Shown in pieces: positions 20,801-50,204 of a DNA stretch of 64,000 bases (position 1 is the first letter of the stretch; the number at the start of each line of letters is the position of its first letter). The notes beneath the pieces were generated by a model. That model was given only the letters and a program-made list of their open reading frames with translations. It did not search any database and was not told the origin of the DNA. Origin of the DNA: Branchiostoma floridae. Its lineage: Eukaryota > Chordata > Leptocardii > Amphioxiformes > Branchiostomatidae. Location of the stretch: NCBI RefSeq assembly GCF_000003815.2, contig NC_049990.1, positions 21,338,321-21,402,320 of the forward strand, given 5' to 3'. A program made the position numbers and the translations under genes.

Positions 20801-23800
20801 CGCAGGTGATTCAATTTGCAGCCTCTAAACAATGGGTTCCTATACAAAAAAGAGGAGAAAGCAACTGTTAGTAACTCAACTATCTGACGTTACTGGCACA
20901 CAAACATACCCTCATATGAAAGCCCGACATCTCAGCTATCCGAAAAACCACATTTCGGCATGAATCTAACGGCGAGAACTTCCGGGAAACTGAAAGATTG
21001 ACCCATGACCTCAAAACCGCACCACAACCCAGTGAGGAGGCCATGTGCTAGGACAAAAAAGTCCCAACTTTATACCCCCTAAAAACCACACAAACTCAGC
21101 TTTTTGGCCCTAATCACAAAGTTGAAACCCTCCCCTGTCACACCCACCTCAAAACTGCCAGGATTTCTACCCATTTGACCAGGAAAAAAATCTTGAAGTT
21201 TTAGGCCCTGAACTATAATCGACCACCATCAATTTGCATGGCGGATTGACCTGCGGATCCCCTTCACAGAGCCCAAGTTCAAAATTTTACAAAAAAAGTT
21301 TTATCATACAATGGAGACAGGGGTTGTTACATATTATCCTAAGTATGAAAGAATTTCAATGATTTATACTCCCCTGGGACTCACTTTTATTACAGGTATC
21401 ATGGCTGCCATCAGAGTCTGAAGGGGGGGGGGGGGGCAGGGCATATATACCAAGAGCTGTTTTCAAGAAACCTGGCATATGTAGGTCAAGAAATGCCAAA
21501 AGCTAGTCACTCTGACACACAGAGACTGCCTCTACAGTGACAGAGACCTGAAATTTGGTCATGAAGTGTTGTTTCAGAGGCTTTGTATGGACTTTCAGAA
21601 GGTGTGTGCTGGGCACTTAATAAAGTAGGTCAAAGCCAATTTCACCCCATGCACACACCACTTTCTTCATTTTTTGTTATGAAAATGGCACTGACAGACT
21701 CTGGTATGCTGTCATGATACCTGCCACATGCTAACATCATGCTAACATCCCAAAATAGTTAGCAAAACACAGGATAATGGGGCTTAGTAACACACCTCCT
21801 GTATCCATGAGCTCGACCGCTTTCGCGGCTCCTCCCCTGGGACGTTGCCAAATAACGTGGTTCTCGTCCAACCTAACTCTTTTGGACTATTCATAATTTA
21901 CTTTTGCAATTGCCAATAAAATGCAGGTCAAATGAAAGAGTGATAGACTCTAGAGTCCATCCTCCCTCTCAAGTCATTTTACACCAATGGCAATTTTCAT
22001 TGTAAGCAGTGCCCATTAGCACACCAGTGAACCCAAAACAGCTAAAATATAGGAAATTCTCAACAAATTTAGCATGGCATGTCCCCTGGGACCATATTTC
22101 ACACATATGGAGGTGTATTCAGCCCCAAAATAGCTAAAAAGGGGGAGGGCAGGGTGATACCTGGAACACTTCAGGGTATCCGCAGGTGATTCAATTTGCA
22201 GCCTCTAAACAATGGGTTCCTATACAAAAAAGAGGAGAAAGCAACTGTTAGTAACTCAACTATCTGACGTTACTGGCACACAAACATACCCTCATATGAA
22301 AGCCCGACATCTCAGCTATCCGAAAAACCACATTTCGGCATGAATCTAACGGCGAGAACTTCCGGGAAACTGAAAGATTGACCCATGACCTCAAAACCGC
22401 ACCACAACCCAGTGAGGAGGCCATGTGCTAGGACAAAAAAGTCCCAACTTTATACCCCCTAAAAACCACACAAACTCAGCTTTTTGGCCCTAATCACAAA
22501 GTTGAAACCCTCCCCTGTCACACCCACCTCAAAACTGCCAGGATTTCTACCCATTTGACCAGGAAAAAAATCTTGAAGTTTTAGGCCCTGAACTATAATC
22601 GACCACCATCAATTTGCATGGCGGATTGACCTGCGGATCCCCTATAAGTATGACAATGTTATTTTGCCAGGCATGTGATAGCCTTGGTCTTTGTTCACTG
22701 GAGTTTTTTATATCTTTCCAGATACGTGTGGACTATGCTAGTGCAAAGGTAAGACCCTGCTTGTACATTGGTCACCTGTACCTGTTGCAAAAAATATGCA
22801 GAAAATCCTTTGTTGTGTTTGCAGTTGGAATGCAGTTCAGATGTTACCCTCTGACTTCATTATATGGATGACATCCGCTTGCGAATCAGTTTTTCGTCCT
22901 TATCCACAAAAACAAAAGGTTTGCTACCATATTTTTAATGGCACACAGTAGGGCTGGGTATCGGTACAGCGTACCGGTACAAAACCGTTTTTTCTTATTG
23001 GACCGGTCCAGAAAAAACGGACCTGAAAAATTAGGTGGACCGGATGTTTGACCAATTACAAAATTAACAGATTATTTTATCAGGCATTCGCATGTTTTGG
23101 CGCTTGCAGGTGGAAGAAAATAACAAGAGTGAAGTAGAGTAGAGTTTTTAGTAATTTCTACCAAGTCTTACAGCCAATTGTACAGGTGCAGTTAGCGTTG
23201 TAGGATTTTAAAACGCCAGTGTGAGTCTAATACTCCACCAAATAGATCTCTTTGTAGTGAAATGGACCATTGGTATGAGTCAAACTGGATCACGTCCAGG
23301 TTCAGGTCTGGACCTGATCCTTTGGACCTGAACCGGACCTGAATTTTCTGTACCGGTACCCAGCCCTAGTACACAGTAGCTGCAAAAGAGCAAACACGAT
23401 ATGCATTGCAAAACAAAACAGTAGAAAATGGACACTAATGCTGTGAGGAAAGTCTTCCAAAATGAAACAAGATGTTAAAGAACAGAGAAAGACATAATTT
23501 ATTGTTTTGTGTATCATGCTTTGTCATTTGTTTAAAGAGGGTCTGCATGGGGGGTCCTGACAACGCTTTACGCTAAATTCAGGACGGTCGACAACGCTTT
23601 ACGTTAAATTCACGAAGGCAGGCAACGTTTTACGCTAAATTCAGACAGGCTGACAACGGTTTACGCTAAATTCTGGAAGGCTGGCAACACTCGACAGAGG
23701 CGGGGGCGTGCTCCGCAAGAAAGATTGAAATTTTGACTCCCTGAAACACTATTCCCTGCATTTTGAAGGGAAATTTTCGCTGGCAAACAAAGCTAAGTTA

Positions 23801-25245
23801 AATGGCATATCTACTAGTAATTAAAGAGTCCCAGGGGTTCAGCGTAAGCTTATGAGGGTGACGCTAGCCAACTTATTTTTGCCACGTCGAGCGCCGAAGG
23901 AAAGTCCGGGAAAATTTTTAAATCCTGCCCCCCTGAAACGCCATTTTTTTGGCTATTATAGAAAACTAAGTGAAATTACATTTCTATCAGTAAAAAATGT
24001 GTTTGAGGTTGACACGTCACATCCCCCAGCCATGATACATATTTTTACGAAGTCGATGACCGAAGGTGAATAGAGTGGCAAAGGAGATCCGGCTAAATTT
24101 TGAAATGTTGACCCTCTATAAAACGATATTTTGTGCATTTTGATGGGCAAATTTTTATTAGCAAACAGATCTTTGAGGTTGACACACATCCCCAACATAT
24201 TTTCAGAATTTTCGAGTTCCAAAGGCGCGAGGCGGCAGAAGGAGGACCATGGAAATTTTGAAATCTTGACCCTCTAAAATGATATTTCCTGCATTCTGAT
24301 GGGCAAATTTTGCTGGCAGACTAAGCCAACTTCAATGACATTTCTATTTGCAAAAAAGAAGATTTTTGAGGGTATATACCATATTTTTACCATGTCGATG
24401 ACCGAAGGTGAAAGGAGTCGCAAGTGAGGTCCGGCGAAATTTTGAAATCTTGATCCTCTGAAACGCAATTTCCTGTGTTTTGAAGGACTAAATTTACTGG
24501 TAGACTACGTTTCGACTTACGAAATTTGGGAGGCCAGGCTACGATTTACGGGTAATTTTTAGGCTTAATTACGCTTAACGTGAAATTTTTAGGCTAGATT
24601 ACGCCTGACGTGAAATACACTGGCTACGCTTTACGGTAAATTTTCCATCCTCACTACGAATTACGTGAAATAAAAAAGCTTACCCTACGAATTACGGGAA
24701 TTAAAAAGGCCTGCCTACGCCTTACGGAAAAGAGCATGCAGACCCTCTTTAAACCTTCCTGACCACTCAGGTTTCAAAATGAAGGCAACTTTTTTGGGAG
24801 GGGGCCCCAAATTTTTCTTCTTGGCATGGTCACAGTACTTTTGGCATGCCCAGAGGATGTCATCCATATAATCAAATGAGCATGGCCTTAGTTATCTTTT
24901 CCTAAATGACGCTATTTTGTTCTCTACAAACAGCGTGGAGGCGGTGGTGGTGGTAGCTATGGGGGAGGATATGGGCGTGGCCGGGGTGGTTTCCGTGGCG
25001 GCCGTGGGCGTGGTTATAATAACAGTGGTAGAGGCGGCTACTATGGTGGTGGTGGTGGTGGTGGTAACTACTACGGCGGTGGCGGCGGTACCTACTACGG
25101 TGGCGGTGGCCAGTATCAAACCGACTACGGCGGTGGCGATAGCTACGGAGGTGGGAGCTATGGTGGAAGCTATGGTGGCGGCAGTTACGGTGGCGGAAGC
25201 TACGGTGGCGGCTACGAGGGGGGTAGCTATGAAGGCAGCTACTAG
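17804..25245 (+). CDS. Gene 1: CIRBP/RBM3-like glycine-rich RNA-binding protein
   Basis: Single-RRM glycine-rich RNA-binding protein of the cold-inducible/hnRNP type, expected to bind nuclear and cytoplasmic RNA. Coding exons: 17804-17844, 19191-19231, 19545-19626, 20199-20286, 22722-22748, 24934-25245. Together they give 591 nt, 196 aa, with every junction GT-AG and in phase. The start has a GCCATGG context. The RRM covers about residues 14-94: RNP2 KLFVGGL, RNP1 RGFGFIKF, then IRVDYASAK. The C-terminal ~100 residues are RGG/GGY-rich (RGRGG, RGGRGRG, repeated SYGGG), a typical low-complexity, methylatable and phase-separating tail, ending EGSY-stop. Unlike genes 2 and 3, the whole tail is in one exon and there is no YQPY terminal exon. 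Its introns are full of MITEs. Structure is certain from the sequence; orthology to CIRBP/RBM3 rather than another small hnRNP is inference. Confidence 0.93.
17845..19190 (+). other. Gene 1 intron 2
   Basis: Holds an AAACATA short tandem repeat just after the donor (about 17852-17880) and the inverted-repeat element 18308-18880. Nothing else recognised. Confidence 0.6.
18308..18880. mobile_element. Element with ~75-bp imperfect terminal inverted repeats
   Basis: The left end (AAGAGGCTTTTTT...ACACAACCACAG...AACCGTCTGTCACCTTCTTCAGG) is inverted at the right end (CCTGAGGAAGATGACAAACGG...CCTGTGGTTTTGT...AGAGTCTCTT). Non-autonomous; lies in gene 1 intron 2. Confidence 0.7.
19191..19231 (+). CDS. 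Gene 1 coding exon 2 (RNP2)
   Basis: Acceptor TTCTACAG, donor G|GTAAGC, 41 nt. Encodes KLFVGGLDFGTSE, the RNP2 strand of the RRM. The exon length and phase are identical in genes 2 and 3. Confidence 0.93.
19545..19626 (+). CDS. Gene 1 coding exon 3
   Basis: Acceptor TTGAGCAG, donor CG|GTAAGT, 82 nt. Encodes RRM helix 1 and strand 2, ASLEEKFSQFG then ITDRDTGRS. Confidence 0.93.
20199..20286 (+). CDS. Gene 1 coding exon 4 (RNP1)
   Basis: Acceptor CTACAATAG, donor ACG|GTAAGT, 88 nt. Completes R and encodes GFGFIKF (RNP1) and helix 2, DEADAARNAMQ. Confidence 0.93.
20792..21263. mobile_element. 472-bp TIR element, copy 1
   Basis: Starts C-AGGGTATCCGCAGGT and ends ACCTGCGGATCCCCT, imperfect 15-bp terminal inverted repeats. 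By eye it is identical, base for base, to 22172-22643. No coding capacity. Lies in gene 1 intron 5. Confidence 0.8.
21264..22171. other. Spacer between the two 472-bp repeats, with a nested MITE
   Basis: A 908-bp interval containing the smaller inverted-repeat element 21393-21723, a poly-G run near 21423 and GGTTCTCGTCC...AACGTGG sequence of unknown origin. No open frame of note. Confidence 0.5.
21393..21723. mobile_element. Nested MITE with ~28-bp TIRs
   Basis: The left end CAGGTATCATGGCTGCCATC-AGAGTCTG is the imperfect inverse of the right end CAGACTCTGGTATGCTGTC-ATGATACCTG. About 330 bp, non-coding. Confidence 0.75.
22172..22643. mobile_element. 472-bp TIR element, copy 2
   Basis: Identical direct copy of 20792-21263 at an offset of exactly 1380 bp. 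Confidence 0.85.
22722..22748 (+). CDS. Gene 1 coding exon 5
   Basis: Acceptor TATCTTTCCAG, donor AAG|GTAAGA. The 27 nt encode IRVDYASAK, the last RRM strand. In genes 2 and 3 the counterpart is 33 nt (IRVDYASKKSE). Confidence 0.93.
22949..23368. mobile_element. hAT-type MITE, second copy
   Basis: TIRs TAGGGCTGGGTATCGGTACA and TGTACCGGTACCCAGCCCTA. The 8-bp flanks GCACACAG and GTACACAG match at 7 of 8 bases. Same family as 3043-3404, including GGACCGGTCCAGAAAAA. Lies in gene 1 intron 6. Confidence 0.85.
23530..24754. mobile_element. 1.2-kb element with perfect 20-bp TIRs
   Basis: GTTTAAAGAGGGTCTGCATG at 23530 is exactly inverted at 24735-24754. The ends contain several short tandem units built on ACGCTTTACGCTAAATTC or CTACGAATTACG. 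The middle holds about five ~185-bp units carrying GACCGAAGGTGAA and AAATTTTGAAATCTTGA. No transposase. Lies in gene 1 intron 6. Confidence 0.8.
24934..25245 (+). CDS. Gene 1 coding exon 6 (Gly-rich tail)
   Basis: Acceptor TCTACAAACAG, then 103 codons and TAG (25243-25245). Rich in RGG, GRG, GGY and SYGGG. The antisense and +1 frames over this exon are also open, but only because of the GGN repeats. Confidence 0.93.
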   Translation, partial: RGGGGGGSYGGGYGRGRGGFRGGRGRGYNNSGRGGYYGGGGGGGNYYGGGGGTYYGGGGQYQTDYGGGDSYGGGSYGGSYGGGSYGGGSYGGGYEGGSYEGSY

Positions 25246-27153
25246 CGAAGTCTTTCTCTGCATCCCCATGCTATCAGAGTGTCTGCAATGTTTTGCCAAT
25301 ATATAAAGTACTTTGTGTTTTGTTCATCGTACATGCTTAGCATCGGTGTGCCACACACTACTAGTATATGTGTAATGTCGGTCTTTTTCAGTCCCAACTG
25401 TATAACACATGGATTTCTGACAGGTTTCAGCTGTCGGTTTCACACCATTACAGTTCACTGACTGAATTTTCAAAAAGCCATTTGGTCTTTACAGGTTATT
25501 CTGACCCACTCACTTTTGTTTTGCATTTTGTTGGAATTGTAAGAAGTATGGGTTAACAGTACCCAGAGTAAAGTCCAGCATGTCCAATGTAAAAATGAGT
25601 GGTTAAAAATTTGATGAGGGCCCAAAAGTCTGTTGACAAGAAAAAGGGTAAAATTTGTTTTGGAAGGACGGCCCAAAACCCCTATCTTGCGACTATTTGA
25701 CACAGGTGAGCTTTTGCTCTAAAATGACGTTACAAACTGTTTACCAAAAATGGATGTTTTTTTTCTTTAGAACATTGTTGCAGGTTGAGAATTAGATATG
25801 GTATTGAGTAACTACAATATTGGGACATATGGTATCCCAGCATAATTGTTGCATTCCTTCTACAACCCTATCCCATTTCCAAGCGAAATGTTTATGATGC
25901 ACAGCAGTACCTCATGGCCATAGATAAAAGCATTTTAAACAGCAGCAGAAAAAGTGATGTACCTACATATATTTCTCAGGGTACAGCAGTGTTTTGATGT
26001 GCATCGAAAACTAGTTAGTAAAGCTACATAATCAACTTCCACTCACGATAGTATTAGATAGTTCACTTGTTTTGAGAAACATTGTAGTCAACTTCCAATG
26101 AAGTGTTATAGTACAATGGAAGTTGACATTGTTAATTGATGTTGTGGTTTGTGCACGCTATGTATCTACTTGTAGTCACCAGAGTAAAATAATCAGACCT
26201 AAGAAAGATGGACAACAGAAAAACTTTCAAGGAAGGAGAGCTTGTGAAGAATCTTGAGAAAATCACGTATGTACATTGGTTTAGCATGACGTTGACCTAT
26301 TTTTGAAGAAACTCCGAAGAGAACATGTTCTTTTTACCAGGCAAACCTAGTTTTGTATACTCAGGACTGATCGAAGACTTTTGTACCTTGTTACAGCTAA
26401 ATGAAAAGTTAAGAGCCTTATAGTGTCAACTTTGAATTGAGAAAAAAGGTGAAAGAGATGTTGCTCAAAGATGTATATCGTTGAAGAAATAGTTTTGTAT
26501 GTTTTTGTCAAAGCCTTTTGGGATTGAAGAACTGGTTGATAGCTTCTACAGTGTTACTGAAATGATTTTGTTTTAACGCCTACTTGTATGTATTGAAAAG
26601 GTTCTTTCCTCAGCAACTAAGTACACTCGAGTTCCTCCATGTACGTTGGTCCGTAGTTTTATTCCAGTGCAAATGAAAAGTGAAATTTTGTGAGCATGAA
26701 TTTCTGAAAAGTGCCTGTGAAAATGTGACTATCCAACTGTATGAATACCGATTTCAAAAATTATTTGTTGATTATTGTCTTTTAACAAAGATCACTTTGC
26801 AAGGGCTCTGCACACACTTTGTTGCAATACGTTTTTAAGTCATGTTTCAAATACGAGAAAAAAATGTAGGATACGATTTTCGATTAAGTTTAAAGTATTC
26901 AGCTTACATTGACATGTAAACTAGCGAACACAAATTTTTTTTTAGTAAAATTTCTTCCACCACTTACCTCTGAAACTCTTAACCTCAGTGAAGCACAGAG
27001 AAACTTTATGCATGTAACTTTCATTTCTTTCAAAGCACTATCAAAGATTATTACATGTTGTCTCGGACTAGTCACCAAGCTTCCTTGTAAACATGGCAAA
27101 CAAAACTTTTGTACATAACCACTACAGGAAACACTATGAACTGATGAAATAAA
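25246..27153 (+). other. Gene 1 3'UTR (inferred extent)
   Basis: Unbroken non-coding sequence after the stop. A candidate polyadenylation signal AATAAA lies at 27148-27153; earlier cleavage is possible. A hairpin-forming pair, TCAACTTCCA...TGGAAGTTGA, sits at about 26091-26126. Confidence 0.4.
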
Positions 27154-29829: not shown

Positions 29830-31470
29830 CTGAAACAAGAATAGAGAAAAAAGATGAGAAAAATAAAAATTAATACCCTGAACATACATGCCACAAGACA
29901 GACCTTCTGAGCCTTGCTACTGTCAGCCTTGTTTGATTTTTGAAAAACTGAAGAACATGGTGTAAAAGTACATAGAAGACAAAGTCAAGTCTTGGAGGGA
30001 GAGGTTAAGTACTGAGGCTTCATTCTCACTGCTCTTTGTGTCTACCTTTATCCACATCAGACAAGGCTGGCAGCAAAGTTAGTGCCATATATCAACAGGT
30101 ATTCAGGATGTAGTCAGAAAAAACAGAGGGGAGGATGGAAGATGAGGAACCCAAACCGAAAACAACCACCAAGGTGAGTCAGTACCTGTTGACCGTGGTT
30201 CGGCCCTGCCCTTTGACCTTATGCCCACGTGAGTGACAAGGTTATTTTAAGAAATGTCACAGCAATGATCAACATATTATACAGTGTCTGTCATGTTTCC
30301 TCAATTTTTCAATGCACATGATTTCTGAGTCAAAGATCAAATACAAATTTTGAAAGCACGTTGAACTTTTCAGAAAATCCTTATACATGTACATTGTGTT
30401 TCATTGATGTCTTTCAATACTATAACTGTTTGATGATGTTAACTTGACAAAAAACAGGACAAAACCAAGTCAACAATTTGATTACATCTGTGGGTATGCA
30501 GCCATCAAAAAAGAGAAGAAAGTTTAAAGATACTCAGTGCAAAACTTCACCAGACCAATGAGTTGGATTGAAAAGCACAGAAGGGAAAGTCAAGGCACAC
30601 CAATCAAGGCAATCTGATGCAATACATGCTGTGATTTTCTTTAGCACTGCACTGCACTGCACACTGTTTTAACTCTGTAATACTATGTGCAGATATTGAC
30701 TTGTGCAAGATACTTCATCATAAAGTTAAATCAAGTAGAAAACACAAAATCACACTGCCAACTGTTTTGAAACACTTGCGAGGAATTTGCTTGGGAGCAT
30801 GCCTCCATGAACAAGACCTGGTACTCTTCAGAATATTGTAAGTTTGGGCTTACCCGTTGCTGGCGGGACTCGTATCCTGAAGAATCCTGTAGTATCCAAG
30901 AGAGAGGTTTTACTGGTGTTTCTACTTTTCACATCTTAGGAAATTTGAGATTATCTGCTACTTACAACAGAACCATTGGTATAGCAACACCTCTCTTTTT
31001 CACACCTACAAACAGTTGCAATGTACTCTTTTATGCTTTTTTTAGTACGAGTTGTTGTGTAGGAACTCATCACCAATCATTCCCCTTGAACTACAGATGT
31101 ACAAATTTGGCTAACAAGTTCGATGAAATGATTTTTCTGATTGAGATGTCTAATAACATCTAATTGCTAAAAAAAATCCTGCTCATTTCAAGCATGACAC
31201 CAACAGTTATGAGGCTTTTCCATGAATAACCTACATACTGTCAGTAAATTTTCTAAATTCAAAATCGTAAAACGAGCTGTCAAAGGGCAAACCAACTGTC
31301 TGGCCAACAGGCAATGATTTTTATTTACTACACATTATAAAATGGGAAGTAAAAGGGATCTAACTTCTGGAAAGTTTTTCTCCAATTTTTCAAGCAAAGT
31401 AGTGGCCCCCCTTATGCCCCTATCTGTACAAGTTAGCTGCAATTCTGTTTTGCCACATACACACACACAT

Positions 31471-31525
<55 letters not shown>

Positions 31526-34500
31526 CACACACACACAACTTAATATAAATGCATCATGGGGACTAAAATGAAACACTTTGCTCTGTCAATGTTACACATG
31601 TACTCACATCGTTGTAGCTACGGCGGCCACCACCACCACCATATCCGCCACTGTCGCCGTAATCACCGCCACGATATCCGCCGCCTCCACGTCTCCCGCG
31701 GCCGCCTCCGTAGCCACCGCCGCCGCCATATCCGCCGCCGCCGCCACCATACCGTCCACCTCCACCACGGCCGCCCCTGTAGCCGCCTCCGCCGCCGCCA
31801 CCCTGGCAGGAGAAAAACACAAATCCTTTAGTACACATAAAACAGACCTCCAACTCTTCATCAGAATGTTTAGAACATATTGTTCATACACAGGTGACTA
31901 TTTTAGGGACATTTTTGCAATCTATCTTTAGCAAAATTAAAGCACTGATATCGTTTAAAGCTCAGCTGGCAGTCCAACAAAATACACAAATAATCTCAAA
32001 CAAAATGTTGACACCATTACCAAATAACGCATGTAAATTTTGGTTCTCAATGGTGAACCTAACCCTAAACCACACTGTGTTTTTGTCTACTGAGGGTGTA
32101 TGGCTGCTACTCAAGAAAAGACAGTAGAAAAGTACATATTAAATGTCAATTTATACAAAGCAATAAACTCACTTCACTCTTCTTGCTGGCATAGTCCACA
32201 CGGATCTAAAGAGAAAACAAGAAGCCAAACAACAAAGAATAAGAAAGCGGTCAGTTTTCCCAAGGCAGTCGGCACCGGTCGGTATCTGAGTTTCTTTACA
32301 GCTGAACTGGCCTCACTGCTCATCTCACTGCTAGTGGCGTTCTGCTGGGAGCAAGGTGTTTACTCACAAAGTTCATTAACAGGAATACATGTTACACAAT
32401 AAATACACCACAATCTTTTTGTTTAAAACACTATTTAACAAATACATGTCACCTTGTGACTACATGTATTCTATATCTTAGCAGGTATGAAAGGAACACG
32501 GCAACTGCGGGAGATCAACTCATCTTTATTTTGGCTTAGGAACAGACCATCAGCTCTTGGCTGTTCAACAAAATCCCCTTGAGGAGTTTTTGATTCCTTC
32601 ACACGAGAGCAGCCATTCTTTAGCACAACACCATCAACAATTAACCTACCACTACGACTTGTAACAAACAAAAAACAACATACTGTATCCAAATGAAGAG
32701 TGTTGGAACTGGGATAAATTTCATTCATGAACCACACATACCACAAGAGCCCCTCAATAATTGAGAATTCTCAATAACTGAGCAGGCTTATTTCCTCTGC
32801 ATTTTGTACACTTGTAGACTGCACATTTACTTCTTCTCAAATTCAAAGTTCAGAAATTAGACCAATGTAGATATTTAAGTATTCCTATTGCACATTCATG
32901 GTTTATGTCAACATAATTTATCTCAATTCTCTAATATTGAGATGTTAAGACCTTCCAGTTGAATATGGGTAAAAAAAGTTGGCACATGAGTTTCTGTTGT
33001 AACTTGTATGGTTCCAACTTTTGTAAATAATGATGCATTTACAGATTGTGTCTGCATCATTAGTTTCTTTGTAATCAACTAACACTGAGCCAAATTTGTG
33101 CCATCTCCCATTCCCAATTCAACAGGGCAAAACAATCAAGAAATTACCTTTTTCATTATGACTGACAACCTAAATATTTGTGTGTATGATGTACAGTGCA
33201 TGTGTGTGTGTGTAGAAAACTTCCTGTGGGGCGGTGGTCTATGTTATTTGAACTCAGGCCACGCCCACTTCAGCGGCTTGCCGCTGTTCGGTCTCAATTC
33301 AGGACAATTTGTCCTTACCTGACCGACGCTTGGGTGGTTTGCCGACCCAGTTTTGTCGCCTTGGTTACACCGCTACCGCCGCCGACTCGAAGGGGTTGCC
33401 ACCGATCGCTTTTGGCTTACACCCGGAGCCGCCACCGCCGTCCACTCCAACGGTCATCCTTCTACTAGCCCCTACCATCCAAAATCATTTTACTTCTTCC
33501 TATTACGAGTTGGACATTAACAGGCTTCTCTTGTGCCTCTTCTAGGCTGCTGCTGTCTTACAGCTGTTCATAACCTATTCCAACACAAAATCTGTGAAAT
33601 TCTGTCAGAAACTAGACGCTGCAAAATTAGATAGGCATGCTTACTAAAGACATGCACAATACAATTCCAATGCTTATGTTTAGTTTCTTTGGTCTTTTTT
33701 TGCTTTTTTGTGACTTGTTTTAAAGCAAAAAAAGAATTTGTGCAGGGAATCCAAACTATTGCCATGTCAGATTTATTAATGGCCTGTGTCCACTCAATTT
33801 TTGACAAACCGCTTCACCTGTGGATTGTCACTTCATTGTTAAGTTTGTTTTTTTAAATCTCATTTTGGCATAGCTTGATAGCAATAATGCCTTATGAAAC
33901 TACCTTTTTCAACTTGGCAAGCTATTTAATTTTGCAAAGAAGTCATGTAGTCGATTCAATGCAAAAGTTTTTTGTGATAATTTTGTACCTTTGGCGGCAC
34001 CTTTAATGCTGGCCAAACAAAATTTTTTTTTTTACTTTTTTTTTCCATGCTTATTTTTGGCACCTCTCCCTCTAAGTCTTTATTGGGGGAAATTTGTCAC
34101 GTCCCAGTGTAAAATCACTTCTCGGTTCCTCTGGTCTTCATCATGATCCTTTTTCGGTGCAACCGTTCCAAAAAATAGTCCAAGCAGTCTGTGCGAAGTT
34201 CCTTCCGTTCGTCTAGGACCACAGCAACGAAAGACGTTTTCCACGCTATGTTTATATTGTCCACAGCTCCCGGCTAATTTAGATAAAGTTAACATGTTAG
34301 AATATTTTTGACGACGCCATCTTCTGAAAGTCTTTCTGGTTGGCCGATCCCTTAGTACTGTGTGTTATGATGTCAACAATTCGAACATTTACCTTCAATA
34401 TACAATCAAGATCTTAAGTTTCTTTAAGCTGAAGGGATTTCAACTCAAGTCAACCAAACAATCTGTTAATGAACAGAAAGAAGAATACAACTCCAATGAA

Positions 34501-40976: not shown

Positions 40977-43900
40977 GTGAGTAGAATTTGCTTCTTGTTG
41001 TTTGTGGTGTTATGATATGTTTGGAAATTTTGGACCAGACATTCAGAAAGGACTTACTTTTCCAAATGCAGTACTGAGGAGCATATAACTTTATAAGTGC
41101 ACTGAATTATCTTTTGCTGCTTAACAGTTATGTCATCTTTTAACTCATCGCTTGTTCTTTTCTTTCTGCACAGAAAGCTGTTTGTTGGGGGACTGAGCTG
41201 GGATACCACATCAGGTAAGGATATCAAATAAAGTTTGCCTTGTTATAAATAATCAACTTCTGACAGAAACTCACATATTATCCTTCTGTGCAGTCAGTAC
41301 ACACAATTTCATTTAGTCTTATATGTAGACATCCCTATTCCTGTAATTGGTGTGTATGCACTGTGATGTTGGGATTGTTGGCTGTGTTACGTAGTACAAA
41401 AATATTGCATGACGAATGTCCACAACTAACAAATGCATCAATTGTTGTCCTTTATTAGAGGGCCTAGAATCAACCTTCAGCGAGTATGGCGAGATCACAG
41501 ACTGCAAAGTCATCACCGACAGGGAGACAGGCAGGTCTCGGTAAGGAACACTTCATGTCATGATTTGAATTTTATACTTAAAAAGCCTGTTTTGTAGATC
41601 AAGGGGAAAGGGACAATTACCGGATTGCTGCACAGTAAAAAGGACAATACCCAGGTATCATTGAAATGTTTACTAATAAGTTAAGCATTGTTGCCTGGGT
41701 GTCTACATAAGAGGTTGACACATGACCGTGTTGGTACCATCAACTTGGTAGACTCTAGTTACCTTATATAGTAAGATGATATTGTCATCGAATGTTCAAC
41801 TATTGTATTAAAGATAATGACTTGGCACATATAATCATATTGGAAGTGTGACATTAAACCTGTTATGATCCTCACCTAATGTCTCTTGCTTTTCAGTGGC
41901 TTTGGATTTGTAACATTTGCGAACGACAGTGACGCTGCCAATGCCAAGAAGTGTATGGATGGCACCGAGCTTGATAGTAGACAGGTAAAACTAATCTGCA
42001 TGTTTGACATTTGATCACACCCTTCAAATAGTAAATGTCAAGTTTTCAAACAAATGCCTCCTATTGAAAAATGTTGTGTTCCATGCATTTCAAAACGTTA
42101 AATTGCTAGTGTATTTTCAGGCTGTATTCTGGATATTTGGGTGATTGTTTTATTTTTAATGGTGGTATTGTCTTTAAACATGCAGATTCTACTGCCTCGA
42201 CTGTTTAAATGCTACTGATAAAGGAAAATGACCAGAAAAGTAATTTAACATGTTCAAAATGCTGGACACTTCTTGTATAATTAATGGACAAGAATTAAAG
42301 AGCTTGAATAAATGATTTTAAAAAGAGCTTCCTTAAAAGTGGTAGAATGCAGCATGAAAATACTCCCTATACTAAGAATAGATGACTTCACCAGACTTTG
42401 AATTGACATTTCAAATTCCATTTTTTCCAGTTCTGTTCTGAAGATTTTCACATGAACGGGCATTGTAATCCATGTTTGCTTTGGATAGGTCACTTACCAG
42501 GTTACTCTGACACAAATGTTGCAGATGAGATGCTGTAAGGTGGAGAACTAGAATGTTACAAGTTGAAATGTACACTTAAATATGCACCATGATTGTGATT
42601 TGGGGGTCAGTTTCGCTTGTTTCATTTTATGAGGAAATTGATTGGTTCAGAATTTTAAAGAAACCAAATTTGTTTATTGTATTTTGAAGGTAAATTATTT
42701 GAAAGTATTGATATGACAGCAAACCGCACACATGCTACTGGATAGTCCATTGACTGGTTAGGCTTCCAGGAGATGGGGATGCCAAAGTATTGTCCTAGAT
42801 GAGAAGGTAACTATCTAAATTAGTTGGAAGCTGTGGATGACATAGAAACAGTATTGGAAAGCTCTTCTCAGAGGTTTTCATTGCTGTGGTCTATCCATTA
42901 ATGTCTACAAGACGGTCGGAAGAACTTCGCGCTGACTGCCCGGAAAATTTTTCGGAACGGTTACACCCAAAATGGATCATGACCAAGACGAGAGGACTGG
43001 AGAAGTGGATCGTGCAAAAGCATTGGCAATGATGAAGTCAACAGTCTTTTGGCTTGCTGCAAAACTTTGCCACCTAAATAGACAGACCGCGGAAATACAT
43101 CGCATATTTGGGAGCATTTCAACCAAAATGAAAATGTGACTGAATGCCATATGCAGCGAATTTGTACTTTGGCTGGTAACGTTTCGCAATCAAGTAATAT
43201 AACTGATGAAACAACTTTTTTCTGAAGTATGTCAAACATCTTGACATGGCTTTGTTTGTGACTGTTACCTTTGGACTGGAAAAAAAAGAATGCAAAGGTT
43301 GCAGATTGGCTTAGGTCAAAAATCTGATTTTTCTTATTTTTAAACCATGCCAAAGTACACAGTGAACAAATTAATAATAAGACAAGTAGCAAGTCACGAA
43401 ATCAGCAAAAGGAAAAAGATGTAAGTAAAAAAATTGAGTGGACTACAGGCCATATTTGAAGACTTATAGCACAGAATCTCAGTCCAAAAATGTATTGTTG
43501 CATCCTGTACAATCAGAAAAACCTGGATTTCACAGAGATGCCAGCTTTCTTTGGCTCTTCAAGTAAGCAGGAAACAGGGTACAGGAAAGCTGCAAATACA
43601 AATCAAAGAAATGTGTTGTGCATGTCTTATACAAGCATGCCAGCAGAATAGTTTGACCTCTATTACAGTTTCTTAGAGGTACACAGATTGATTTGTTTTG
43701 GAATAGATAGGGTATTATGATGAATAAGTGCTTTGTGATTACCAAAAAGTAGCAGCAAAAGCCTAGAAGAGGCACAAGAGAAGCCTGTTAATGTCCAACT
43801 CGTAATAGGAAGAAGTAAAATGATTTTGGATGGTAGGGGCTAGTAGAAGGATGACCGTTGGAGCGGATGGCGGCGGCAGCTCCGGGTGTAAGCCAAAAGC

Positions 43901-46900
43901 GACCGGTGGCAACCCCTTCGAGTCGGCGGCGGTAGCGGTGTAACCAAGGCGACAAAACTGGGTCGGCAAACCACCCAAGCGTCGGTCAGGTAAGGACAAA
44001 TTGTCCTGAATTGAGACCGAACAGCGGCAAGCCGCTGAAGTGGGCATGGCCTGAGTTCAAATAAGACCACAGCCCCACAGGAAGTTTTCTACACAAATAC
44101 ACCAAACTTTGATTAGGAACATTAAGACACATAGGGTGTCATTCTCATGATGATAAGGATGATATTTATTTCTAAGAACTTTGAAAGTGCTGTCAGCAGA
44201 ACACAGGAAATGCACAATTTGGTACAGGTTTTTCTCAGCTGAAACTTGCTCAACTGCAGTTTCTTACACAACTGTAGATACTGGCACTTTTCGTTATTTT
44301 TAGATGAAAGTGGACCAAACAAAAGAGTTAACCCTGGGTCTGAGTACACGGCAATTATTTTTCCTGTATTCAATTGACAGCCTCTCACATAGCTCTTAGT
44401 CCCAGTGGTAACTTAATGACAATAGAATATAAAGATCGCTTTAGACATGCAGATTTTAGAAATCTGCATGTAATGTTTCTTGCTTTTAGTTCTTTGCATT
44501 CTCAAAATGTTGGAGTGTAGATCTTCATCTTATAGAAGTCCTTTCTCACATAGCAGTCTCAAAATGTTAGATTAGATCTACATTTTGTTGTCTTTTTTTC
44601 TGCCATTTTGCAATGATACAAGGCAGGAGAAGCATTTTGGTTTGGTTGCAAAGTAATTAACTGGTAATTAAAACATGGGAATCTTCATCTGTGTGAAAGT
44701 AAACAGGTGAAGTTTTCCATGTGCGTCATATTCCAGTCTACAACACGCTGCATTCGTCATTTGAACATCATGTACTCTGACAAGGTAGTAGTGAGAGGTG
44801 AAACTAGCTGCTCTGGGTAAGGAAAACAAAATCTCCTAAGAGGGATTTTATTGGACAGTAAGATCTACTGTCGTGAAGCCGAAATAAAGTTGAGTTGACC
44901 TTCCGCAGTTGCCGTGTTCCTTTCATACCAGCTAAGAATAGTCACTAGCTCACTGGTGTTGGTTTAGTAATGTTTGACTTGAAGAGTGAGATTATTTCAT
45001 GTTCTATTCCTGTTGATGAACTTCATGAGTGAATCAGGAACACCTTACCCCCAGCAGAACGCCACTAGCGATGTGAGGTGAGCAGTGAGGCCAGTTCAGC
45101 TGTAAAGAAACTCTGATACCGACCGGTGCCGACTGCCGCGAAAAAAAAGCTACCTCTTTCTAATTATTTGTTGTTTGGCTTCTGTTTTCTCATTAGATCC
45201 GTGTGGACTACGCCAGCAAGAAGAGTGAAGTAAGTCAATTTTAGAATATTTATTACGGGAACAAGTTTAAGGATACGTATTAACGATGATTTTGAACTAT
45301 AATTCAAAAGTTTTGCTTTATTGTGTGCTTTAACTCTGATTTTATAAAGACTCCATTATGTTTATGTTGAATGTCTTGTTTCCTCCCTCAGGGCGGCGGA
45401 GGTGGCTACAGGGGTGGTCGTGGTGGCGGCCGGTATGGTGGCGGTGGTGGTGGATATGGCGGCGGCGGATATGGCGGTGGCGGCGGATATGGTGGTGGCC
45501 GTGGAAGACGCCAAGGAGGAGATCGTTACGGAGGTGGAGGTTATGGCGGCGGCCGTGACAACCAGTATGGCGATGGTGGCGGTGGACGGAGCTACAACCG
45601 TGGCTACAATGATGTAAGTACTAGTGTAACACTCACTGTGTTTTCAGATCAGTGTTCATTCCTCAAAAGCAAATAAAGGGTGAGCTTTGCATATAGATTG
45701 TTGAATAAAGATTAAGATATATTATGCTATAGTTACCAAGATGGAAGGACTTAAATGAACATCTTGTAAGTTTCTTGTGTAGAGTTGAATAGAAATAAGA
45801 ATGTCCTACTTGGTTTGCAAACAATAGAGTCAGACCCCCTCATATGCCATCCGAAAGATGCACTGCATATCGTTACCTGTTGGCCAAACGGCTTGCCCTT
45901 TGACAGCTACGGGGCTTTACTTTCTTTAGATATCTTTACAATTCCTTACATATCAACTTAGACAGAAGGGGGTAACAATGTCATCACAATCTCCCTTAAT
46001 TTGTCCCCCAAAAAAACTGCACATTCATGTAGATAATGATTTCAACTTATAAACCAGATCAGTTTTTGTTACACCCAAAATTAGATTGGAATGACATCTC
46101 TGTAGCAGCAAAAGTGTTACCAGATTAGGTTCATCAGATGGTTGCGATGAAAAAGACAAATAAAACTTTTGACCCTGCTATACCAGGAGTAGCCTTCTGC
46201 ATTAACAGTATGAATAGTCAGAAGAAGAAACATGTGTCCGTTGGCATATATGCTCATAGTTGAAAGTACCAATGGTGAACTATTATTTAAAAGAAGACTA
46301 CCTGTTTTCCAAAAGCATTGAAAGGGTTGCATGTTTAAACAGTTACCAAATTTCTATGAATGGTTTTGTGATTTTTAAAGACCTAAGGAGAAGGGTACAA
46401 ATATGTTTCCACTGGAAATGTACCACAGAAAATTTAGTTTAAACCTAAAAGTACAAAAATATACATTGAAGCTCTCTGCAGAAAATGAAGAACACCACTT
46501 TTGATTCTGTTGTAAGTAGCAGATCTCAAATTTCCTGAGATGTGAAAAGTAGAAACACCAGTAAAACCTCTCTCTTGGATACTACAGGATTCTTCAGGAT
46601 ACGAGTCCCGCCAGCATCGGGTAAGCCCAAACTTACAATATTCTGAAGAGTGCCAAGTCTTGTTCATGGAGGCATGCTCCCAAGCAAATTCTTTGCAAGT
46701 TTTTCAAACTGTTGGCAATGTGATTTTGTGATTGGTTGAATTTGGACTTGACAACTTTCTGATGACATTGACACAATTGGTGTGATCAAGCATCTTGTAC
46801 AAATCAAGCATCCATAGTCCATTCAAGTTAAACCAACCAATCTTCTCAGAAATACCTGTAGTAACTTTCCATGTGGGAAATAAGGAGTGTGATCCATCAG

Positions 46901-47851
46901 GCTGTTTGTTCAGTGCCAGAAAAAAAACACAGCATGTCTTCTGCATTGATTGGTGTGCCTTGAGTTTCCCTTTTTGCTTTTCAATCCAACTCATTGGTCT
47001 GGTGAAGCTTTGCACTCTGGTTGGCTTTGAACATTCTTCTTTTTTTTTATTAACCCATTCATAAAAAAAGTGGTTTGTTCTTGTAGAATCAGGCTGCTTC
47101 CCCACAGATGTGATCAAAATGTTGACCTGGTCTTTGTCCTGTTCTTTTGAGTTATACATCATCAAGCAGTTCCTGCAAGTTAGCTGAGACAAAGGAAATC
47201 TAAAAAGTGCAAAGATTAAGTCTTCTATGAAATTCAACATACCTCTACCATCTAAATTTTGCTGTAGTGTTTGACTCCAAAACCATTTTCTTTGAGCAAA
47301 ATTCTCAAAACGACAATTTAGAGTTATTGACAACTGGTGATAGAGTAACTCTACCGCTGTAAGCCTCTAAAACTAACTACGGGCACCTTGTCACTCACGT
47401 GGGCATAAGGTCAAAGGGCAGGGCCGAACCACGGTCAACAGGTACTGACTCACCTTGGTGGTTGTTTTCGGTTTGGGTTCCTCATCTTCCATCCTCCCCT
47501 CTGTTTTTTCTGACTCCATCCTGAATACCCGTGGAAATATGGCACTAACCACACTTTGCTGCCAGCCTTGTCTGATGCAGGAAAAACTCCACAAGATAGC
47601 ATTTGCTATGTTTCAAGCTAACCTTTGAATGGATCCTTCCACGACCATTGAAACTCTTCCTGCTTCATCCTTATACCACCATATTTTCACTTTTCCTGAG
47701 GTCAGACAAGGTCGTCAACAGCATGGCTCATAAGGTGTGTTTTGTTGCACTAGTGGTCAAGTGCATAGTAAAAACGGTGTCCCAGCACTATTGACATGTG
47801 ATAGATATCTCATCTTCCTCTTAATTCTTGTTTCAGTACCAGCCATACTGA
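40954..47851 (+). CDS. Gene 3: CIRBP/RBM3-like RNA-binding protein
   Basis: Single-RRM glycine-rich RNA-binding protein, close paralogue of gene 2. Coding exons: 40954-40976, 41174-41214, 41459-41540, 41897-41984, 45197-45229, 45392-45613, optional 46588-46620, 47837-47851. Every junction is GT-AG and in phase. Length is 167 aa, or 178 aa with the cassette. It starts MSGEKEPG. RNP2 is KLFVGGL and RNP1 is RGFGFVTF; it has IRVDYASKKSE at the RRM end, a 74-codon GGY/GRGRR-rich exon ending GYND, then YQPY-stop. Expected role: RNA chaperone or splicing/stability factor with a low-complexity tail (family knowledge). Conserved, potentially structured introns around the cassette suggest regulated or self-regulated splicing (inference). 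Confidence 0.93.
41174..41214 (+). CDS. Gene 3 coding exon 2 (RNP2)
   Basis: Acceptor TTTCTGCACAG, donor CAG|GTAAGG, 41 nt. KLFVGGLSWDTTS. Confidence 0.93.
41459..41540 (+). CDS. Gene 3 coding exon 3
   Basis: Acceptor CCTTTATTAG, donor CG|GTAAGG, 82 nt. EGLESTFSEYGEITDCK, then ITDRETGRS. Confidence 0.93.
41897..41984 (+). CDS. Gene 3 coding exon 4 (RNP1)
   Basis: Acceptor TTGCTTTTCAG, donor CAG|GTAAAA, 88 nt. GFGFVTFANDSDAANAKKC, then LDSRQ. Confidence 0.93.
41985..43750 (+). other. Gene 3 intron 4, first part
   Basis: Intron sequence without recognisable repeat. Minus-strand open frames here (for example 43392-42961, 143 codons) show no known domain and no counterpart in gene 2, so they are not called. 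Confidence 0.5.
43751..44093 (+). promoter_or_regulatory. 343-bp highly conserved intron 4 block, gene 3
   Basis: Counterpart of 33212-33554. The antisense frame of about 78 codons is open in both copies. In the part compared in detail, three of five base changes are non-synonymous, so protein constraint is not supported. On the gene strand a donor-like CAG|GTAAGG occurs (about 43989), but no acceptor with a pyrimidine tract precedes it. Confidence 0.5.
44875..44930 (+). promoter_or_regulatory. Conserved intronic block with AATAAA
   Basis: Matches 32478-32535 of gene 2 inverted: AATAAAG(A/T)TGAGTTGA and CCGCAGTTGCCGTGTTCC. The conserved AATAAA (44882-44887) on the gene strand could support intronic polyadenylation; this is speculative. 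Confidence 0.35.
45051..45137 (+). promoter_or_regulatory. Conserved intronic block upstream of gene 3 exon 5
   Basis: Counterpart of 32264-32350. In gene 3 it carries CCCCCAG|CAGAACGCC...GTGAG|GTGAGC, a possible 23-nt frameshifting exon. The donor is altered in gene 2, so I do not call an exon. Confidence 0.5.
45197..45229 (+). CDS. Gene 3 coding exon 5
   Basis: Acceptor TTCTCATTAG, donor GAA|GTAAGT, 33 nt, IRVDYASKKSE. Confidence 0.93.
45392..45613 (+). CDS. Gene 3 Gly-rich exon
   Basis: Acceptor TTCCTCCCTCAG, donor GAT|GTAAGT, 222 nt, 74 codons. YRGGRGGGRYGGGGGGY, then GRGRRQGGDRYGG, ending YNRGYND. Confidence 0.93.
45874..45908 (+). promoter_or_regulatory. Gene 3 intronic pairing element A
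   Basis: Contains TACCTGTTGGCC, CGGCT and TGCCCTTTGAC. It is complementary, in order, to element B at 47410-47444: a 12-bp block, a 4-5-bp block and an 11-bp block, about 28 pairs with two G-U. It lies 261 nt after the Gly-rich exon. Confidence 0.6.
46490..46692 (+). promoter_or_regulatory. Conserved intron around the gene 3 cassette exon
   Basis: About 200 bp nearly identical to gene 2 (30781-30980). Immediately after the exon, GTAAG-CCCAAA-CTTAC can form a 5-bp hairpin that would cover the donor; it is unchanged in gene 2. Confidence 0.6.
46588..46620 (+). CDS. Gene 3 cassette exon (33 nt, inferred)
   Basis: Acceptor GGATACTACAG, donor CGG|GTAAGC, phase 0. Encodes DSSGYESRQHR, inserted between GYND and YQPY. 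Strong splice sites in both paralogues. Confidence 0.75.
47410..47444 (+). promoter_or_regulatory. Gene 3 intronic pairing element B
   Basis: GTCAAAGGGCA, GGGCCG and GGTCAACAGGTA: reverse complement of element A blocks. Identical over 35 nt to the gene 2 copy. About 790 nt past the cassette donor and 390 nt before the last exon. Confidence 0.6.
47837..47851 (+). CDS. Gene 3 terminal coding exon
   Basis: Acceptor TTCTTGTTTCAG, then TAC CAG CCA TAC TGA (YQPY, stop). One of the shortest coding exons in the window. Confidence 0.88.
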   Translation, partial: YQPY

Positions 47852-49548
47852 GAAGCCACAGGACACATCCCCAAGCCGAAGATAGGGGAGGTTAACTGTT
47901 TACTCTTATCAGCACCCAAGGTTACTGAGCTAGTGTCAATGTGTATCTTACATGAAGATGTTCCTAGGTGCCTCTTGCTGTGCTCAGATGCAGCAAGGGA
48001 CATTTAGGAACTTCTCTTAAGGGTGTTTGTATGTTAAACTTTGTCACATATCTTGTATTACCCAATTCTGTACCTGGTTGGAAGTGAATTAAGGTAGTTC
48101 CAGGTTTTCTTGAGTATTAAAATATTTTTTCTTGATGTACAAGTAGTGAGTAAAAAAAAATCTCCCCATACATCAACGTTTGATCCCTTGTGAAGCATTG
48201 GCAAATCCTTGCCATGTATTCCACTATATACGAATAACACATCTGTACCAACATGTAAAACGATAAACATAAGTCCAAAAATGGCATGTAGTCTGCTGGG
48301 GTGCTAGTTTGTATGCATTTATAATGATAAAACTAAGGTAGAACTGTAACTGTAAGAAGATTTCACCTGAAGTGAATAGTTTGCTAGGTATCTTTTTGCC
48401 AATTTTGATTTCCTGATCTCGGTTCTGTCACTAAATGGTTCAGGAGGTTGACTTAACTGTTAAGTTCATACTTGTGACTCCTTGGAATTAGATGTGGTCA
48501 TGTCAATGTATTTGAGCAACAACCAACACAAGAGGACAAAGACATTTCCAAGTGAGGATGACTTGTGAGAAGAGATATTTTTCAAGTCCAAGACAGTTTG
48601 TTTTGTTAAGCTGAAATGTAGTTTGCAAAAGAGAGATTATGTTCGTATCCTTCAGATGATAATTCTTGCCTGTGAGTAAGTGGCAGATAAAAGGCTTCTA
48701 TATGCAGTAACTGGAAAAAAACTTAAGGCAGTGCACACTGTATTCACTTCTACTCTAGTGCTTTTCTACTAAAGGACTTGTTGAAGACATTGTTGTAGTT
48801 AAGAAAAATGTGCTTAAGTAAGGATTTGACATGTTGGCAGCTGTGACTTGAGAAATTGACCTGTGTGATATAGTAAGTCGTTCCAGGCTTGCTACAGTTT
48901 TACGTACATGTATTTGATTCTAAAGGAAAGTGGTCATTGTGCATTCCATCGTTTGATAGTTTTAAACCACGAAAAAGTATCATTTGCAAGCTTACACCTA
49001 TGTATTGGCTATTCCATTTATTAAGGCAGTCATGAAAATTTCTTGGAAAGGATAGGGCTGGGAAGATCAACAACGTAGTAGAAAGGAAGTGAAAGAAAGG
49101 GGAGGAAGACTTGCTGATCTCCTTTCCTAAGATTTTAAATGGAATAGCTTTTATCTTTCTTGAGATGACCAATTCCTGTGGGCCAGTTAGACATCTTACT
49201 CAAAGTGGTCTACGTACATGCCAAAGTGCTTACAAAGCATCATAATGTGATCTGATTTGTTATCAAACCCCCAAAGTTGCTGAATAATTGTCTATTTTTG
49301 TATTGCATTATCTTTTCCATCAATGTACAAATGTTTACACCTGTATACAACATTGGATATGTTTGTAGTGACCAAGTCGAGGAGAGAACCATCAAGTATA
49401 CCTGATAATTGTATGTGAAGAAAGAACAAGTTGAACCTACATCACTGAAATGCCGCTGAGAGCAAACTGGCAAAATCAGAACGTCCATGTAATTCTTTTT
49501 ATGCACTTCATTTTTAATTGTCACCAATAAAACATAGTCTTCGGTAAG
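47852..49548 (+). other. Gene 3 3'UTR (inferred extent)
   Basis: Non-coding sequence to the AATAAA signal at 49526-49531 (context CACCAATAAA, as in gene 2), with a G/T-rich stretch following. Open minus-strand frames here (up to 121 codons) have no recognisable domain. Confidence 0.5.
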
Positions 49549-49787
49549 TCTGTGATCTCGTGTCATTGTTTGAAGTGCTGTAATAAGACAGGACAGATTA
49601 TCCATATGAAAGATTAGATGCTACCATTGGAAGAAACATGCATTGATTTGACCCAACTAAGATTGTTGCCTAGCCTGTCTGCCACCTTCGAAGTATGTTG
49701 TTCCATATTGATCAGGTGAATAAGGAACAGAACATCTATTATTTAATCAAAGGAGATAAAACATTACAAAAGAAAACACTGGGATGT

Positions 49788-49848
49788 CTAATATGTTTAC
49801 ACTGATGGACCTCGATGAAGGTTAAGGAATGGGCACAAATGACCGAGG
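49788..49848 (+). repeat. 61-bp direct repeat, left copy
   Basis: Identical to 56409-56469 (starts CTAATATGTTTACACTGATG, ends GACCGAGG). The two copies bracket the large foldback element and the repeat it sits in. Confidence 0.85.
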
Positions 49849-50204
49849 TCCAATAAAAAGCGAGAAGCCGACAGAGAACAGAGCTTAAGTGGGTGGGCGG
49901 GTGGGTGGGCGTGTTGTAAGAACCAAACGGAAACGTCAATTCACCCCTCCCCCCAAATCTTACGAGGGGGGGGGGCAAAATCGAAAACACTTGTTACATG
50001 TATATCAACTTCCCATGAAGAATATACAGCTATCCTTAGAAGAAGCCCCCTCGTGTAAGTACAAGTACATGTATCTAGAATCACGTGCAACTACTGCTTC
50101 TCCCTTGGCCTCTTTCTACCACCACCTCTTTGCTCATACTCCATAACACAAATACCCTGCGAGCAAAACTCTCCACTCCCTATCCTCTGCTGTGTTCGCT
50201 GCGA
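49849..50204. repeat. Left part of the host repeat of the foldback element
   Basis: The last ~40 bp (ATCCTCTGCTGTGTTCGCTGCGA) match the sequence before 61727 (CTCCTAGCTGGGTTCGCTGCGA). The rest contains a G/T-rich GGTGGGCG repeat and no gene. Confidence 0.5.

Follow-up and report, generated by a model that had tools for sequence, protein, structure and literature searches.

The window analysed here, a 64,000-nt stretch of the Branchiostoma floridae genome (assembly GCF_000003815.2, contig NC_049990.1, positions 21,338,321 to 21,402,320 of the forward strand), contains two sister genes in head-to-head arrangement, gene 2 on the minus strand (RRM exons at ~35.7-32.2 kb) and gene 3 on the plus strand. 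The gene 3 protein has one RRM (RRM_1, E 6.4e-26) followed by a Gly/Arg-rich tail. Because the PDB matches include CIRBP (query residues 1-80, 93.7 bits; 20th among the 60 matches listed, in a ranking by total score that brings multi-RRM proteins out above it), CIRBP-type is a fair label for the host gene, and by domain layout and similarity search, rather than by a tree, CIRBP/RBM3-type would be a fair label for both sisters. In gene 3, a 33-nt exon (46588-46620) lies between the Gly-rich exon and the last exon, which encodes YQPY-stop. The subject of this analysis is a pair of complementary intron elements, A and B, that flank this small exon, together with their counterparts A' and B' in gene 2. 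The features referred to below are as follows, in positions of the window.

45614..47836, plus strand: gene 3 span from the Gly-rich exon to the YQPY terminal exon, 2,223 nt including the small exon, GTAAGT...TTTCAG
45874..45904, plus strand: element A, the upstream arm, 31 nt, 28 predicted pairs with B at -45.4 kcal/mol
46588..46620, plus strand: small exon of gene 3, in the loop of the predicted A:B duplex, 33 nt encoding DSSGYESRQHR, AG/GT borders, 32/33 nt identical in the paralogue, with conserved flanks
46619..46627, plus strand: 5' splice site of the small exon, a possible second partner of A (9 bp complementary to A at 45890-45898)
47385..47515, plus strand: intron island containing B, 131 nt, identical in both genes, two copies in the assembly
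47410..47444, plus strand: element B, the downstream arm, 35 nt, predicted to pair with A, inside the 131-nt island
29830..31607, minus strand: homologous span of gene 2, 1,778 nt including the small exon, GTGAGT...TTTCAG
31279..31313, minus strand: element A' of gene 2, 29 predicted pairs with B' at -44.3 kcal/mol bare and -52.2 kcal/mol with flanks
30854..30886, minus strand: gene 2 counterpart of the 33-nt exon, in the loop of the predicted A':B' duplex, 32/33 nt identical to the gene 3 exon
30183..30217, minus strand: element B' of gene 2, identical to B and matched by the genome pattern search

The predicted A:B duplex in two diverged sister genes

An initial annotation, made from the letters of the window, had described A and B as reverse complements in three ordered blocks, with about 28 pairs across ~1.5 kb. 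This description holds: the blocks comprise UACCUGUUGGCC/GGUCAACAGGUA (12 bp, one G-U), CGG/CCG (3 bp) and CUUGCCCUUUGAC/GUCAAAGGGCAGG (13 bp, one G-U), for a total of 28 sense-strand pairs including two G-U wobbles, with 1,505 nt separating the arms and the small exon enclosed between them. The proposed extent of B (47410-47444) coincides exactly with the paired bases, whereas that of A (45874-45908) is right at its start and four bases too long at its end, the paired bases stopping at 45904. The exon itself lies between the elements as annotated, with AG/GT borders and in frame. The predicted energy of the duplex is -45.4 kcal/mol for the bare elements, -47.8 kcal/mol for the best pair of 45-nt windows and -56.7 kcal/mol with flanks.

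A search of the window for the core words yields a second set of A/B words on the minus strand, at 30.2-31.3 kb, where the gene 2 intron carries A', the 33-nt exon and B' in the same order as in gene 3. There, the pairing spans 1.06 kb and gains one extra pair (29 versus 28), and the unpaired stretch between the blocks varies in length and sequence between the two genes.

The two genes are well separated in their coding sequences. Across four RRM-exon pieces totalling 243 nt, a comparison that leaves out the first exon and the Gly-rich exon, 210/243 nt are identical, 10 of the 28 fourfold sites differ, and the synonymous divergence (Ks) is 0.49-0.67 by three methods; the matches between the introns are therefore not a matter of mere recency. 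Alignment between the genes is poor in the upstream half of the intron (0-52% in 40-nt windows up to 46500). Within it, A forms a ~40-nt island (45869-45908) that can be aligned to A' (blastn 81.8%, E 2e-5) with poorly alignable flanks, while across the small exon and its flanks (46540 to 46699), identity in 40-nt windows is 95-100%. Given this island around A and the 131 identical nt around B, both arms are more conserved than the surrounding intron.

Of B, 28 bases take part in the duplex of both genes; opposite three of them, the A base differs, and since all three changes convert a Watson-Crick pair to G-U on the sense strand, the pairing survives in the paralogue. When three random changes are placed in A, only 1.8% of 2,000 trials keep -43 kcal/mol or better, as compared with the -44.3 kcal/mol of gene 2. 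The sense strand also pairs more strongly than the antisense strand in both genes (-45.4 versus -41.2 kcal/mol in gene 3; -44.3 versus -36.4 kcal/mol in gene 2). The earlier proposal of a pairing that puts the exon in a loop is thus well supported by an architecture that is kept in a diverged paralogue, with changes at paired bases that are exclusively pair-preserving, though one-sided. From this comparison, we conclude that A:B is a putative long-range RNA structure kept by selection, the same in the two sister genes.

Complementarity against controls and across the genome

The initial annotation had suggested folding against shuffled controls, and in a window scan of this kind, the duplex exceeds every shuffle. 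In a scan of 45-nt windows placed every 15 nt, upstream versus downstream of the exon, with dinucleotide shuffles as controls, A:B is the best pair in gene 3 (-47.8; matched by 0/44 shuffles, the best of which reaches -40.6) and A':B' is the best pair in gene 2 (-48.6; 0/60 shuffles, best -38.7), although these shuffle numbers are modest. A second scan considered ungapped helices (at least 8 bp) at aligned positions of both introns; it yields 41, the top two of which are the arms of A:B. Scored by the weaker gene, they reach -23.5 and -22.8, values for rank 1 and rank 2 that are attained by 2/300 and 0/300 column shuffles, respectively (50-column blocks, n=300). The conserved helices at ranks 3-6 likewise lie beyond all column shuffles (0/300), and the intron therefore holds an excess of conserved complementarity besides A:B. 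In minimum-energy folds of the whole region (~2-2.5 kb, 37 C), which are unreliable at such lengths, A:B is present for both genes.

A search of the 513-Mb assembly for the two-block motif gives four exact matches, namely A, B, A' and B', and none for its reversed control. All matches thus fall in two introns, unlike the many dispersed copies of a mobile element, and the surrounding region itself occurs twice in the assembly. A search of 43000-50000 against Rfam gave 0 matches at E up to 1.

Probable exon loop-out and competing interpretations

We consider it probable that the A:B pairing holds the 33-nt exon in a loop and favours its skipping in both sister genes. In the pre-mRNA, A and B would base-pair over 1.5 kb in gene 3 and 1.06 kb in gene 2, and the resulting duplex would put the small in-frame exon in a loop. 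In gene 3, this would bring the 5' splice site of the Gly-rich exon near the 3' splice site of the terminal exon, at an effective distance of ~650 nt instead of 2.2 kb. The shortened distance between the outer splice sites would favour skipping of the small exon, with the Gly-rich exon spliced directly onto the YQPY exon, so that the C-terminal tail could be tuned between ...YND-YQPY and ...YND-DSSGYESRQHR-YQPY. Judging from this anatomy and from published looped-out exons, promotion of skipping is the likely effect of A:B. We regard it as the likeliest because exons looped out by conserved pairings in human genes are on average less included, more so with stronger structures (PMC8052449), and because a review names Nmnat, DST, CASK, PHF20L1 and hTERT as loop-outs (PMC10790352). 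On this reading, the 33-nt exon would be used alternatively.

The architecture resembles that of the human pairs of conserved complementary regions (PCCRs), in which two short conserved intron boxes of near-perfect complementarity lie far apart with an exon in the loop, and the A:B energy falls within the strongest PCCR group (-30 kcal/mol or lower) (PMC8052449). The present case differs from the human ones in coming from amphioxus, in occurring in two CIRBP-type paralogues and in being known from sequence; the words CIRBP and RBM3 are absent from the main text of PMC8052449. As in Drosophila Nmnat, an intron pairing is predicted to shorten the distance between outer splice sites and to exclude the content of the loop; there, however, an exon together with its own poly(A) signal is excluded with ~350 nt looped, whereas here, the excluded segment would be a small internal coding exon (PMC10790352). 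The host gene also recalls RBM3, a gene of the same kind, in which a regulated exon, the temperature-controlled poison exon 3a, lies in a conserved intron (PMC10165353). Exon 46588-46620 is unlike a poison exon of the RBM3 type in that its 33 nt, encoding DSSGYESRQHR in the C-terminal part of the protein, keep the reading frame and contain no stop codons; in addition, the passages covered on RBM3 invoke enhancer and silencer elements rather than long-range pairing (PMC10165353).

On its structural features, A:B should be filed as a candidate member of the class of conserved exon loop-outs, of which the examples given in the papers covered are mostly mammalian or from flies (PMC8052449, PMC10790352, PMC11802352). 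In the passages covered of the open-licence PMC literature, no long-range RNA structure is reported for amphioxus or for a CIRBP-type gene; while conserved exon loop-outs are a known kind, an amphioxus CIRBP-type case appears new within that literature. Its interest is that of a natural replicate: in an invertebrate chordate, two gene copies with diverged coding sequences clearly retain the arrangement, on which long-range control of splicing can be tested. As the mammalian family member RBM3 has temperature-controlled splicing (PMC10165353), the age of splicing control in the family also becomes testable.

Several observations weigh against a loop that promotes skipping. In human genes, conserved pairings loop out exons less often than expected (PMC8052449). 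The 33-nt exon may be constitutive, its splice sites being good by eye. B has the same sequence in the two genes, and because of this invariance, the changes are one-sided and two-sided compensation is absent from the two sequences compared. The 131-nt identity around B is larger than pairing requires, which indicates additional constraint on B; the island thus seems to carry a constraint other than pairing. Two cruder tests of complementarity are also unsupportive or mixed. Whole-intron local alignment gives no excess (75/100 shuffles reach the gene 3 best and 61/100 the gene 2 best), and its best matches lie away from A:B; we judge its gap and wobble costs too lenient, so that it favours long weak alignments and is a poor guide to compact duplexes. 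Folding the whole upstream half as a duplex against the whole downstream half gives z = -3.8 in gene 3 (0/42 shuffles) and z = +1.1 in gene 2 (reached by 49/54 shuffles), but it chains hundreds of pairs, is unsuited to a local duplex and is superseded by the window scan. Finally, the expected A:B pairs of gene 2 fall on cooling, from 27.2 at 37 C to 26.0 (34 C), 16.0 (30 C), 2.2 (25 C), 0.11 (20 C) and 0.01 (15 C), and in its single minimum-energy fold the duplex is still there at 25 C and gone at 20 and 15 C, while gene 3 keeps 27.6-27.8 expected pairs at 15, 20, 25 and 37 C. The modelled loss in gene 2 is not what a simple constitutive clamp in a sea animal would be predicted to show.

An unlikely alternative is that A takes part in competing structures, with B and the small exon's 5' splice site as its alternative partners, such that A:B frees the splice site and the balance between the two, instead of looping as such, sets inclusion. 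In gene 3, the donor matches A through GGCUUGCCC with GGGUAAGCC. Once windows no more than 80 nt away are set aside, the donor window of each intron finds its strongest partner in A (-19.2, first among 680 windows; -18.4, first among 532). Both genes preserve the 9-bp helix (rank 4 of the 41 conserved helices; rank 7 of 63 in a rescored scan), and the 3' part of the B island pairs just downstream of the donor (46624-46633 with 47470-47479). However, A:B is much more stable and should prevail at equilibrium, and the donor match is only mildly unusual (~1 in 20) and was noticed post hoc. A is the best partner for 7/102 arbitrary intron targets, some of which equal or overlap B and one of which is the donor, and the match could therefore be coincidence. 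One element with possibly two mutually exclusive partners is reminiscent of the docking-selector structures of Dscam and ATE1 (PMC10790352, PMC11802352), but here, a single exon (by eye) lies between the Gly-rich and terminal exons, and each gene has one inverted pair and no repeated selectors. That A is a two-way switch set by a protein on the B island or by temperature, controlling the C-terminal tail and possibly acting in feedback, is a speculative extension that we hold to be improbable; if true, it would govern the tail of a cold-inducible-type RNA-binding protein. The predicted fold of gene 2 is temperature-dependent and that of gene 3 is not.

The elements might instead act as DNA, A and B being intronic enhancer modules with sites for the same factor in opposite orientation and RNA complementarity a by-product. 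B does lie inside a larger, fully conserved island, and its AGGTCAAAGGGCA block, a word common to the elements, resembles a DR1 nuclear-receptor site. We nevertheless give this reading little weight, as the changed pairs are wobble-compatible on the sense strand, sense beats antisense pairing in both genes, the block order and the middle helix are also kept, and the motif is restricted to two introns of the assembly. Similarly doubtful is another role for the duplex, in back-splicing, in ADAR editing or in packing the long intron for efficient use of the terminal exon. In its favour, human conserved pairings are over-represented outside back-spliced regions and also show enrichment with A-to-I editing sites (PMC8052449), and an extra inverted pair downstream of B, present in both genes (see below), would reduce the distance to the last exon. 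Against back-splicing, 33 nt is a very short exon for a circular RNA. Least credible is a chance inverted similarity or the relic of an inverted-repeat transposon. Inverted repeats are common in introns (16 pairs listed in 4 kb), and the two crude complementarity tests described above lack a clear excess, but the pairing is kept in a paralogue at a Ks of about 0.49-0.67, the motif has its four matches genome-wide, and no shuffle equals the duplex in either gene. Contradicted by the paralogue, the genome search and the shuffles, this explanation is very unlikely.

Other conserved features of the introns

Two candidate exons in the B island were considered and set aside. On the reverse strand, a purine-rich open stretch is followed by a good 5' splice site, but by eye, the identity between the genes continues into the would-be intron; opposite-strand coding alone therefore does not explain the island. 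On the sense strand, an extra exon in or after the island would have weak borders, and beyond 47566 the two genes differ in their reading frames (by eye). Following B, and starting inside the island, is an AG-free run of ~120 nt (47442-47563); in either gene, no other such run of the intron is as long, the AG-to-AG distances being 124 and 119 nt. It may be the sign of a distant branch point or of a polypyrimidine silencer. Further downstream, a second inverted pair joins 47557-47575 with 47702-47720 in gene 3 (CCUUGUCUGA core, 126 nt between the arms) and 30073-30056 with 29937-29920 on the minus strand in gene 2 (arms 118 nt apart); this may be a hairpin conserved in both genes.

A separate region of high conservation, ~310 nt at 43757-44065 in gene 3 and 33551-33239 on the minus strand in gene 2, is part of the intron that separates the ...DSRQ exon from the IRVDYASKKSE exon; 301/313 aligned columns are identical. 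It is more conserved than the RRM exons (301/313 versus 210/243), has stops in all three frames and contains a good donor (GTCAG/GTAAGG, with the exon ending at 43989). On sequence grounds, it looks like a candidate poison exon, possibly similar to exon 3a of RBM3. A third gene with an RRM and a Gly-rich region lies upstream on the plus strand (19195-25306); the A/B word GCCCTTTGAC is absent there.

Around the small exon, both genes share a 13-bp helix (46589-46601 with 46639-46651) in which the exon pairs with the downstream intron and the 5' splice site lies in the loop. GCATG words, which match the RBFOX motif, occur at aligned places downstream of the exon (46672 and 46932 in gene 3; 30802 and 30629 in gene 2). 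Upstream of the exon, a conserved GTAAGT-like decoy 5' splice site (46508-46517) is complementary to 46631-46640, just past the real donor.

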